Shown here: positions 10,303-26,283 of the stretch, one piece after another | How the letters are laid out: each line of letters opens with the position of its first letter | Position numbering within the stretch: the stretch's first letter is position 1 | From: Chryseobacterium sp. ISL-80 | Lineage (GTDB): Bacteria > Bacillota > Bacilli > Bacillales > Cytobacillaceae | Reading direction: 5' to 3' | NCBI GenBank assembly: GCA_018613055.1 | Contig: JAGGQZ010000007.1 | Coordinates: 48,565 to 112,564, forward strand | DNA length: 64,000 bases | The notes under the pieces: model-generated | What the model saw: only the letters and a program-made list of their open reading frames with translations | Databases searched by the model: none | What the model was told of the DNA's origin: nothing | Translations under genes and position numbers: made by a program

Positions 10303-10308
10303 GAAGCA

Positions 10309-10340
10309 AAGAAACCCCATGGAGGCCATGGGGTTTCTTC
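10309..10340. terminator. Bidirectional terminator between pepF and the ParR-like gene
   Basis: The near-perfect hairpin GAAACCCCATGG / CCATGGGGTTTC with an AGG loop lies between two converging stop codons (10302 and 10345). Confidence 0.8.
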
Positions 10341-10344
10341 ATGC

Positions 10345-10932
10345 TCACTTATTCATTTTGGCGAGGAAATCTCCCAGCAGGTCGTCCAGATCTTCTTCTG
10401 ACTCTTCCTGGTCCGGTGTTTCAGTTTGTTGGACTGATTCCCATTCAAATGAATCCAAATCATCATCCATCTCTTCAATTTCAGCACTAGAGGCCGTCTC
10501 CTGTGTTACCGGTGATTCCTCTTCTGATGCTGTCGGGTGCATGTTCCTATCATCTTCCTGCAGGTAAAGGGCTTCATCGATTTCAGTTGACTTGCTGTTT
10601 AATGAGGCCAGCAGTGCGGTTGCCCGTAATGGATCTGTCAACAGGTGATAGACGATATTGCCCAGCAAAGCCTCAGAATGCTCATGCTTGATCCAATCCC
10701 GCTGCGATTTGCTGAGACTTCGAGGGAGAGGGATGGTAATCGTTTCGCGTTCCCTTGAATAGGAATTCCCCACACCTTTGACGACAAACTCAGCAATCTT
10801 GCTCGAAAAGTTCCTTCGCTCTGTTTCCTTCAAGTTTTGAAGATGTCTTAAGATATGGTCAGGTGTATCAGAGGGCACACGAAATGACAATGCTTGTCCT
10901 CTCTTAATCTCATTTGGGTTGGTTTTTTTCAT
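10345..10932 (-). CDS. ParR-like centromere-binding adaptor of a type II (actin-like) partition system
   Basis: This 195-residue protein follows the ParM-like gene by 14 nt and has its own AAGGTGATC ribosome site. The N-terminal half (about residues 12-115) is basic with a short beta strand and helices (ALSFRVP, then FSSKIAEFVVKG), consistent with a ribbon-helix-helix DNA-binding adaptor. The C-terminal third (about 120-190) is strongly acidic (EEMDDDLDSFEWE, EESEEDLDDLL), suited to contact the actin-like filament. No strong sequence signature was relied on; assignment rests on operon position, size and charge layout. Function: links DNA sites to the filament ends. Confidence 0.75.
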   Translation of the reverse strand: MKKTNPNEIKRGQALSFRVPSDTPDHILRHLQNLKETERRNFSSKIAEFVVKGVGNSYSRERETITIPLPRSLSKSQRDWIKHEHSEALLGNIVYHLLTDPLRATALLASLNSKSTEIDEALYLQEDDRNMHPTASEEESPVTQETASSAEIEEMDDDLDSFEWESVQQTETPDQEESEEDLDDLLGDFLAKMNK

Positions 10933-10946
10933 AGGATCACCTTATT

Positions 10947-12122
10947 TTAGCTTTTAACAGGTTCAGAAGCGGCTTTGCTGCTCTTCTCTGATTTCTTCAC
11001 ATAATCCATGATGAGCTTATAGTAAGCGTTCGCCATCATCCAGATGCTTTCTTTTTCATCCTCGAAAAATTCGATGTTATAGCCATCAAGATTATTGTTT
11101 AATGTTTTGATATATTCTTTTAAAACTGTTGCGCCACCGCCGACAAAATAGCAGATTTCAGTCTGGGAATTCTTTGCCCACACATTGCGAAGCAGGCGGT
11201 ATTGCTTTTTAGCCAGTTCAAGCAGGATACGGTCCGTGATGTCATGGACGCTTGTACGGCTTCCCTTGACCATGATATGGTTGCGGTCATTCTTGCGCGT
11301 AATGATTTCTACAACGTCTGTGCGGCTGTCTAACTCGACGCCATGCTTGCTGCGGATTTCTTCCCTGATTTGTTCAAGCGCTTCAGAAACACCAAGGTTG
11401 AAGCCCTGTGCCTTGTCATCATCGACATTGCGGTTCTTGATGACAGCGATATCTGTAGATAATCCGCCGATATCCTGGATCAGGATTCTTCTATCAATTA
11501 AATCCTTGTTGATGATTTTCAGGCTGTTGTCCATTACTAGATTGATATAAGCAGCGAAGCCTTCTGGATAAACCTTCACTTCATCAAATTTGATATTTAC
11601 TTTCAGTCCCTGGTATTTAGGAGTAACAAGGAATTCTACCTGGTGAACGGACCCTACCAGCTTGGAACGGTAGCCAGCATCTTTTCCTTCTTTAACTTCA
11701 CGAAGCGGAAGGCCAGTACCAAGCGTATAATTCGCATCAATGACATTCTTGCTTTTCGGGAATAGCTTGGCATTGTCTTCATTGACAGCATCCAATGCAA
11801 GAGTAGCGAAAAGCATGATCAAGGTCTGGTCTTCCTCCGACTTGCTGCTTCCAGGATCAAGTTCTGTTGCATTATCGCTTTTAGTTGCCAGGTTTCCGAC
11901 ACGATAGATCGCGTTATTTTCTTTCAGGGCAGGGGAGTGGACACGAATATGGATTCCATCAAGCGGATCCTTCGTATCAAGCTCCTCGATACCGATTACA
12001 GGACGGTCTTCAGTGTCCCTTGCCACAATATTAGGGATATTCAGTTCGTTATCAAATTCTCCAAAAATAGCTTTAATAGAATCGTTACCAACATCAACTG
12101 CTGCAATTCTTGATTTCGTCAT
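10947..12122 (-). CDS. ParM/AlfA-type actin-like ATPase (filament-forming DNA segregation motor)
   Basis: This 391-residue protein shows the actin/Hsp70 nucleotide-binding motifs in order. Phosphate 1 is AAVDVGNDSIKAI (D10). Phosphate 2 is IQDIGGLSTDIAVI (about residues 215-228). The adenosine motif is YFVGGGATVLKEYI (about 328-341). Length and motif spacing match ParM/StbA-family plasmid segregation ATPases rather than MreB or FtsA. It heads an operon with the ParR-like gene, and its upstream region carries the repeat cluster expected of a parC centromere. No plasmid replication gene or integrase is present nearby, so the cassette appears to be part of the chromosome. Confidence 0.88.
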   Translation of the reverse strand: MTKSRIAAVDVGNDSIKAIFGEFDNELNIPNIVARDTEDRPVIGIEELDTKDPLDGIHIRVHSPALKENNAIYRVGNLATKSDNATELDPGSSKSEEDQTLIMLFATLALDAVNEDNAKLFPKSKNVIDANYTLGTGLPLREVKEGKDAGYRSKLVGSVHQVEFLVTPKYQGLKVNIKFDEVKVYPEGFAAYINLVMDNSLKIINKDLIDRRILIQDIGGLSTDIAVIKNRNVDDDKAQGFNLGVSEALEQIREEIRSKHGVELDSRTDVVEIITRKNDRNHIMVKGSRTSVHDITDRILLELAKKQYRLLRNVWAKNSQTEICYFVGGGATVLKEYIKTLNNNLDGYNIEFFEDEKESIWMMANAYYKLIMDYVKKSEKSSKAASEPVKS

Positions 12123-12144
12123 TCATATCATTCCTTTTCATTTA

Positions 12145-12400
12145 TGTATACTTACCTACTATTCTAAAGGTAAAGGGAAATAATAGATACTGCAAGATTT
12201 ACGAGTAAAAAGAAATGTAAATGTAAACATGTAAACAAGATGTAAACCTCACGCTCATTGTATACATAATTGTACACAATGAATACAAATCTGTATACAT
12301 CCCTATAATTCAATATGTGTACGCGTTTGTATACATGTAAACGTAATTGTGTACGCGTTGTTTACAAAACGTATACATGTCTACATTATTGTATACAACA
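12145..12400. promoter_or_regulatory. Candidate parC centromere: phased TGTATACA/TGTAAACA sites
   Basis: At least fourteen near-palindromic octamers of the form TGTAWACA occur. TGTAAAC starts at 12222, 12230 and 12241. TGTATACA or close variants start at 12145, 12259, 12271, 12280, 12292, 12316, 12328, 12336, 12348, 12359, 12370, 12378 and 12390. The last eight average 10.6 bp apart, one helical turn. TGTGTACGCGT occurs twice (12316 and 12348). The cluster lies directly upstream of the ParM-like gene, where parC of R1-type systems serves as both centromere and autoregulated promoter. That dual role is inferred. Confidence 0.75.
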
Positions 12401-24753: not shown

Positions 24754-26283
24754 ATGTTATTAGATGCAGAAATTAAAGCACAATTAGCCCAATATCTTCA
24801 AATGATGGAGGGCGATGTGCTGCTTAAAGTTAGCGCAGGATCGGATGATGTATCACGAGACATGCTGGCTTTAGTTGATGAATTGGCAACAATGTCATCC
24901 CACATTAAAGTGGAGCATGCAGAATTAAACAGAACACCCAGCTTTAGTGTCAACCGTGTTGGCGAAGACACCGGAGTGACTTTCGCAGGCATCCCTTTAG
25001 GACATGAATTCACTTCATTAGTCCTTGCCCTGCTCCAGGTCAGCGGCAGAGCGCCAAAGGTAGACCAGGCAGTCATTGACCAGATTAAAGCGATTAAAGA
25101 CGAATATCGTTTTGAGACATATGTCAGCCTTAGCTGCCATAACTGCCCTGATGTGGTACAAGCCTTGAATGTGATGAGCACTTTAAATCCTGGCATTTCA
25201 CATACCATGATTGATGGTGCAGCGTACAAGGAAGAAGTTGAAAGCAAGGATATCATGGCCGTGCCAACGGTATTCCTGAATGGTGAGCCATTCGGAAGCG
25301 GACGTATGTCCCTTGAAGAAATCCTTGCAAAATTGGGTTCAGGTCCCGATGCTTCCGAGCTGGCTGACAAGGACCCTTACGATGTCCTTGTTGTTGGCGG
25401 CGGACCAGCTGGTTCCAGTGCAGCCATCTATGCAGCGCGTAAAGGCATCCGTACAGGAATCGTTGCTGAGCGTTTCGGTGGTCAGGTAATGGATACTTTA
25501 GGCATCGAGAACTTCATCAGTGTCAAGCACACTGAAGGCCCTAAGCTTGTTGCCAGCCTTGAAGAGCATGTGAAAGAGTATGGCGTCGATATCATGAACC
25601 TTCAGCGTGCGACACGCCTGGAGAAGAAAGATCTGATCGAGCTAGAACTTGAAAATGGTGCAGTCCTTAAGAGTAAAACTGTCATCATTTCGACTGGTGC
25701 CCGCTGGCGTAATGTCAACGTACCAGGAGAAGCTGAATTCAAGAACAAAGGCGTTGCCTACTGCCCTCACTGTGATGGACCATTGTTTGAAGGAAAAGAT
25801 GTAGCTGTCATCGGCGGAGGAAACTCTGGCGTTGAAGCAGCAATCGACCTTGCAGGTATCGTAAAACATGTAACAGTAATTGAGTTCAATCCTGAACTCA
25901 AAGCTGATGCTGTTCTACAAGACCGCCTGCACAGCCTTCCGAACGTCACAGTTGTGACGAACGCACAGACAAGCGAAATTACCGGAACTGACAAAGTGAA
26001 CGGTATTACGTACATTGACCGTGCATCTGGCGAAGAACACCATGTTGAATTACAAGGTGTATTCGTCCAGATCGGCCTCGTACCAAACACAGAATGGCTC
26101 GGTGACACGCTTGAACGCACTCGCTTCGGTGAGATCGTCGTAGACAAGCACGGTGCCACAGACCTGCCTGGCGTCTTCGCTGCAGGCGACTGCACAGACA
26201 GTGCATACAAACAAATCATCATTTCAATGGGATCAGGTGCAACCGCAGCATTGGGTGCGTTTGATTACATGATTCGTAACTAA
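24754..26283 (+). CDS. ahpF: Alkyl hydroperoxide reductase subunit F (NADH:peroxiredoxin reductase)
   Basis: The 509 residues comprise an N-terminal double thioredoxin-like domain (1-200) with the redox pair in [10 protein letters not shown], an FAD domain ([14 protein letters not shown], near 211), an NADH domain ([15 protein letters not shown], near 350) and the thioredoxin-reductase-type active site CPHCDG. Electrons flow from NADH through FAD and both disulfides to AhpC. All four redox cysteines are present. It is co-transcribed with ahpC. Confidence 0.97.

Follow-up and report, generated by a model that had tools for sequence, protein, structure and literature searches.

The window (the whole stretch of 64,000 nucleotides that was analysed) carries on its minus strand a complete ParMRC layout which reads, in the order of transcription, as an array of GTNNAC palindromes (12396 to 12223), the gene parM for an actin-like ATPase of 391 residues (10947-12122, with its ATG at 12122), a gap of 14 nt, the gene parR for an adaptor of 195 residues (10345-10932) and a terminator-like stem-loop behind parR (10307-10341, a consensus match only). 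The parC-like array and an extra GTATAC near the parM start (12146-12151, minus strand), which is a possible operator site, are both assigned from sequence only. A scan for sigma-A promoters returned 8 sites, against 6.4 in shuffles, and therefore no excess. The flanks are pepF and an RND pump, both recovered by family search, and no mobile-element gene was found with Pfam and NCBIfam among the six window proteins scanned (the cassette and its neighbours), nor does ParM match any phage record at E 1e-5. The preliminary description, which had recognised a complete chromosomal cassette between these same flanks and away from plasmid and phage genes, is upheld in these respects, and hundreds of genomes share the layout.

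ParM passes the Pfam cut-offs of Alp7A_like_C, MreB-like_C, ALP_N and the ParM model PF21523 (accessions PF22128, PF21522, PF17989 and PF21523), with 132.4 bits for PF22128 (cut-off 22, E 1.6e-38) and an E-value of 7.4e-10 for ALP_N. The three nucleotide motifs, already noted before, are read in the window as DVGNDSIKA, DIGGLSTD and VGGGATV; among the 80 ParM orthologs from named loci the exact strings DIGGLSTD, DVGNDSIKA and GGGA are present in 80, 71 and 51, respectively, and the core residues (in the phosphate and adenosine motifs of the actin fold) are invariant in 21 aligned orthologs. The protein stays below the NCBIfam equivalog cut-offs for FcmB (32.5 against 300 bits) and plasmid ParM (29.8 against 417 bits), and profile searches in the PDB give weak ParM matches (E about 0.005), with CorM also matching weakly. 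One protein of the window's genome matches PF22128, as does none in the 14 control genomes (B. subtilis included). A second, distant actin-like protein (G000:C13:268962-269792, L280:2397-3638) matches ALP_N only and is 28% identical to ParM (28-32% in the genus); its gene, which adjoins a second DUF7852 gene and one of the CsxC family, is distant from the origin in those genomes of the genus that are complete.

ParR has no match at E 0.001 in either Pfam or NCBIfam (at E 10, Pfam returns chance-level matches only), its best PHROGs match is at chance level (E 0.063) and no solved ParR structure is matched by sequence in a PDB profile search. Its first ~98 residues are homologous (hhalign 99.7%, E 5.6e-27, 36% identity) to proteins whose genes follow parM on plasmids and which likewise have no Pfam family; this agrees with the adaptor that had been proposed from the size and place of the reading frame. 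As judged by eye, with no library match, the N-terminal part looks like a ribbon-helix-helix, the domain with which adaptors of type II systems usually bind DNA. Across 27 sequences the N-terminal half is conserved, the acidic linker is variable and the end, LLGDFLAxMNK, is conserved again; the pattern LG[DG]FLxxMN[KR] fits 78 of 80 orthologs and the remaining two deviate in the last residue only. The gene after parM is parR, in the same orientation, in every one of the 80 named loci, with 5-31 nt (median 13) up to the first possible parR start.

The 14 palindromes of the array succeed each other at 12, 8, 11, 11, 12, 8, 12, 24, 21, 12, 18, 11 and 8 bp, that is, mostly at 8-12 bp. The cluster of sites reported upstream of parM in the preliminary description lies far above expectation, since the 300 bp upstream of the gene hold 15 GTNNAC, against 2.1 +/- 1.3 (maximum 7) in 2000 dinucleotide shuffles. 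Arrays of 8-18 sites per 220 bp, at most 1 kb upstream of parM, are present in 80/80 named loci (only 282 bp of upstream sequence being available for the count in L105), and the background is 2 of 1088 1-kb chunks with at least 7 sites. A sequence model of the array (R1), built from 17 arrays including that of the window, was used to score in each of 20 genomes 150 of the 757-2,475 first-look candidates. Its best genome-wide match (E-values from 8e-6 to 4e-22 over the 20) is directly upstream of parM in 19 of them, the exception being G069, where it is just behind parR and the upstream match is weaker; no further array was found elsewhere in the 20 genomes, all R1 matches below E 0.008 being in or beside the cassette. 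Additionally, the densest GTNNAC cluster is the one at parM in 13/13 origin-left regions, while a stricter pattern puts first, in G069, the cluster behind parR. Second arrays adjoin the cassette in G069 (C1:3264692, behind parR) and in G388 (C1:1725428, ~1 kb upstream of parM), and in Cytobacillus citreus (L057) unrelated sequence separates parM from an array that is intact further upstream. No comparable array was seen at six plasmid parM promoters, where, by eye, about four half-sites (like GCATRC, GTATAC or GGATAC) are visible in five cases and slightly more in the remaining one (L243).

Distribution and conservation of the cassette

Type II partition systems are known as plasmid machines. 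Orthologs of the ParM described here, with at least 79% identity, are present in 63 of 101 relatives (five further genomes have weak matches only), and all 21 genomes of the window's genus (its own and 20 others) carry one; the absence from all close relatives, which the preliminary description had regarded as evidence against its reading, is therefore not what was found. ParM has matches in 201 of the 397 genomes sampled from the order (limit E 1e-40), and the best E-values listed do not exceed about 1e-201. The class sample yields 43 matching genomes out of 398, 24 at 76% identity or more, 19 at 43% or less and none between, and in the phylum sample the matches at E 1e-60 are four of 398, namely the window's own genome and one each of its genus, family and order. 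The nearest named records, among the best 80 of 453 matches, come from Mesobacillus boroniphilus, M. subterraneus and Bacillus sp. ISL strains, which makes Mesobacillus the probable genus of the window. It had also been suggested that plasmids be searched for the same ParM clade: of 72,556 plasmid records 37 match, and none exceeds 43.3% identity.

Nevertheless, the cassette is dispensable and not essential, because genomes of one and the same genus may differ in it (G057 has it, G038 does not). Sporulation separates nothing here, since Spo0A passes its cut-off in 99 of the 101 relatives, with and without the cassette; the two misses are G010, which is 66% complete and has the cassette, and G072, which has none.

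The level of conservation of ParM is about that of WalR or Soj. In 12 genomes the mean pairwise identity is 0.835 for ParM, 0.809 for WalR, 0.805 for Soj and 0.797 for DnaC (PurA, in 11 genomes, has 0.858), whereas ParR is at 0.580, like WalK at 0.579. A tree of 41 chromosomal and five plasmid ParMs splits the chromosomal from the plasmid proteins at 100/100, subject to a long-branch warning. Within it, the sequences of Lysinibacillus and Ureibacillus are nested among Robertmurraya, Neobacillus and Cytobacillus, so that some horizontal transfer is likely; ParM distances track core-gene distances weakly (r 0.10-0.48), and neither these correlations nor the tree prove vertical descent.

Position of the cassette relative to dnaA

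The window adjoins the replication origin, a circumstance overlooked in the preliminary description: rlmH, walK, walR, purA and dnaC are found at 38.8-52.8 kb of the window, and dnaA starts 63.8 kb to the right of the parM start (L153:11922). The positions 38826-59252 correspond to a conserved origin-left block (rlmH, walK, walR, purA, dnaC, ychF), and spo0J, soj and dnaA come immediately after this block. The origin-left position of this chromosomal ParMRC cassette, held while its neighbours differ, is the main new result of this work, and a literature search, in which subscription journals were thinly covered, returned no description of an origin-linked chromosomal parMRC cassette.

The positions of dnaA and parM were determined for 57 genomes, from which G036 (different contigs) and G064 (no ortholog) were dropped. 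Of the remaining 55, which have the two genes on the same contig, 54 have parM to the left of dnaA and within 350 kb of it (median 90 kb), as do 31 of the 32 single-contig genomes (median 70 kb), and the strand of parM is opposite to that of dnaA in 55/55. The exception in position is G039 (L088), with parM at +765 kb in an assembly that is a shotgun scaffold. Distances were taken with exact genome lengths (which put G370 at -287 kb), except for six single-contig genomes with rounded ones. Out of 33 named genomes tested, nine have dnaA and parM on separate contigs, and 22 of the other 24 have parM on the left and on the opposite strand (for example Lysinibacillus fusiformis S4 at 82 kb, L. halotolerans at 49 kb, L. 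composti at 58 kb and Ureibacillus galli at 58 kb), the two exceptions being L088 and Neobacillus kokaensis (L098, at +131 kb on the right side). Among the Lysinibacillus and Ureibacillus genomes of the ParM tree, the position could be determined in four, and all four have kept the cassette to the left of the origin. The genomes in all these counts are not phylogenetically independent.

Two genes of the window served as controls for this position. For pepF, 42 genomes were considered, with six of the window's genus (in which pepF is beside the cassette) and 20 with matches of 37% or less left out; its orthologs outside the genus (58-69% identity) are in the origin-left zone in 0 of 14 genomes, against 14/14 for parM in the same genomes, and two more matches at 51% are also outside it (-894 and -937 kb). 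For ahpF (24754-26280), six genomes of the genus were left out and 21 had no match; in the 15 used, ahpF is in the zone in six and parM in all 15. In a genome of the same genus (G015:C1:4482134-4483153), the best pepF match covers residues 2-341 only and has an internal TGA, so that pepF may be decaying there while parMR stays.

The turnover around the cassette was followed from one genome (G018), in which the stretch from dnaA to rlmH (-37 kb) is the shared block. The zone from -37 to -140 kb has 91 ORFs of at least 100 residues in a mechanical list, of which parM (84%) and parR (56%) are the only ones with orthologous matches in 11/11 other genomes; a response regulator of this zone also scores 11/11, its matches being to walR (-25 to -35 kb), and the runners-up are two ABC ATPases (8/11, at 32-36%), the next best reaching 5/11. 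All 11 genomes had been selected for carrying the cassette and for a contig with dnaA in its interior, and in each of them parM is no more than 140 kb from dnaA; the result therefore concerns the turnover of everything else in the zone. In the 80 named loci, the commonest neighbour family after parM and parR is present in 21.

Possible roles of the cassette

The segment that the B. subtilis prespore captures has its centre slightly to the left of oriC, and the RacA sites lie mainly in the 250 kb to the left of oriC, according to the accessible text of PMC4949633. Based on this zone, together with the conserved ATPase and adaptor, the nearly single array and the origin-left place, we propose that the cassette serves in moving or anchoring the origin-left region, and we consider it rather probable that it works as a type II partition system of the chromosome, linked to the replication origin. 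In the proposed mechanism, ParR would bind the palindrome array upstream of parM (in this genome about 64 kb to the left of dnaA), forming a single centromere-like complex per chromosome, and its conserved C-terminal end would contact ParM. The latter would polymerise with ATP, and the filament would push apart, pull or anchor the origin-left regions of the sister chromosomes, during growth, sporulation or both; ParR would probably also limit its own expression. The system would act beside Soj-Spo0J, as a functional counterpart, in the same zone, of the RacA/ram anchoring of B. subtilis. As the soj and spo0J genes adjoin the origin in 12/12 genomes compared, the cassette would be an addition to ParABS, and not a substitute for a missing one. 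The segregation of a nucleoid region, one of the roles suggested in the preliminary description, receives in this way strong circumstantial support from the origin linkage and the conserved array. A more specific version, for which we would put the chances somewhat short of even, is that many Bacillaceae have a working actin mitotic apparatus, with an array 35-300 kb to the left of oriC, a bound adaptor and a ParM filament that separates sister origins or anchors them at the poles, alongside ParABS and possibly replacing RacA. The position itself may reflect inertia or gene dosage, given that ahpF also stays in part of the genomes.

One alternative is that ParM has become a domesticated actin cytoskeleton, acting in cell shape, spore formation or polarity, with its gene kept on the leading strand close to the origin for the sake of dosage and with the array as an over-sized operator. 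Origin-proximal, co-directional genes do have high dosage, and ParM weakly matches the FcmB model (32.5 bits). In filamentous cyanobacteria, FcmB and FcmC, which derive from a plasmid partition system, control cell shape (PMC12645912, accessible text). Nevertheless, that score is far from the FcmB cut-off of 300 bits, the adaptor retains an N-terminus of the plasmid-adaptor type, and the array, kept in 80/80 loci, is much larger than the roughly four half-sites (by eye) at most related plasmid promoters, all of which makes this explanation unlikely.

Another alternative holds that an old chromosomal cassette simply never moved, and that it partitions co-resident plasmids in trans or works without any effect on the chromosome. 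The 6/15 genomes with ahpF in the zone, the conservation of the adjoining rlmH-dnaA block and the evidence for some transfer between genera all speak for such inertia. Against it, all the other genes of the variable zone turned over between families, the place of pepF being kept in 0/14 genomes, and ParR would be titrated at the chromosome because the array is there; we regard this second alternative as quite unlikely.

The preliminary description had also raised a plasmid-incompatibility trap, which would capture incoming plasmids with a similar centromere. Related plasmids are indeed found in the same families, but none of their ParMs exceeds 43.3% identity, the half-sites differ at most of the plasmid promoters that were read, and ParM shows a conservation close to that of WalR and Soj, with no sign of rapid change, so that a trap seems highly improbable. 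The relic of an integrated plasmid, which was the remaining suggestion, is hardly credible, since, although related systems sit on plasmids, parM, parR and the array are intact in 80/80 named loci, the identity across families is at least 79% and the neighbours identified in the window include no plasmid genes.

With an origin-linked, array-bearing ParMRC in about half of the sampled genomes of the order, a chromosomal role of ParM becomes testable in culturable spore formers. If the proposed partition role is true, an actin-driven route to origin segregation would join those of ParABS, SMC and RacA.

Comparison with known systems

Among plasmid systems, the closest likeness is to Alp7A/Alp7R of pLS20 and to the ParM-adaptor pairs of Bacillaceae and Paenibacillaceae plasmids (pBM69 and others). 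The former likeness is drawn from the family model (ParM matches PF22128, the Alp7A C-terminal model, at E 1.6e-38), and the latter from the same gene order and the homologous adaptor N-terminus in the plasmid pairs that were read. Unlike these pairs, the cassette is chromosomal, its ParM is at most 43% identical to theirs, its ParR has 195 residues, against about 139-149, with a different C-terminal end, and its array has 14 sites where most of the plasmids have about four half-sites. The parMRC of pSK41 (PMC4911067, accessible text) also has its repeats directly upstream of parM-parR, and the C-terminus of its adaptor is thought to recruit ParM, but it belongs to a plasmid and its repeats are direct and of 10 bp, whereas those described here are GTNNAC palindromes.

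Chromosomal ParMs from Desulfitobacterium, C. botulinum, B. tropicus and others were recently described by Ali et al. (2025; PMC12270681), with filaments for two of them and, in the accessible text, their role left open. Dh-cParM1, Cb-cParM and Bt-cParM resemble the present system in having intact parMR on chromosomes and in being conserved within genera, and Bt-cParM may or may not belong to the ParM clade of the window. The clade described here differs in spanning families of an order and in having its origin linkage and array conservation measured; in the main text of that paper, oriC, origin of replication and dnaA occur only in one reference title.

Like the FcmB/FcmC pair of filamentous cyanobacteria, the cassette would be a plasmid partition actin settled on the chromosome, but those proteins control cell shape (PMC12645912, in the portion available), while the partner here keeps the plasmid-adaptor type of N-terminus and the array. 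Salactin of Halobacterium, likened here by description, is a cellular actin homolog proposed to segregate chromosomes, although an archaeal one (PMC10746226, accessible text); together with FcmB, it indicates that actins of this kind can take part in shaping the cell or in distributing chromosomes. Finally, the cassette shares with RacA/ram and Soj-Spo0J of B. subtilis (PMC4949633, as far as its accessible text goes) an action on the origin-left region, which for the cassette is proposed from its position. Those systems work without actin, and RacA, which is specific to sporulation, has many sites spread over about 250 kb, whereas the cassette would act through an actin-like ATPase and essentially one array.
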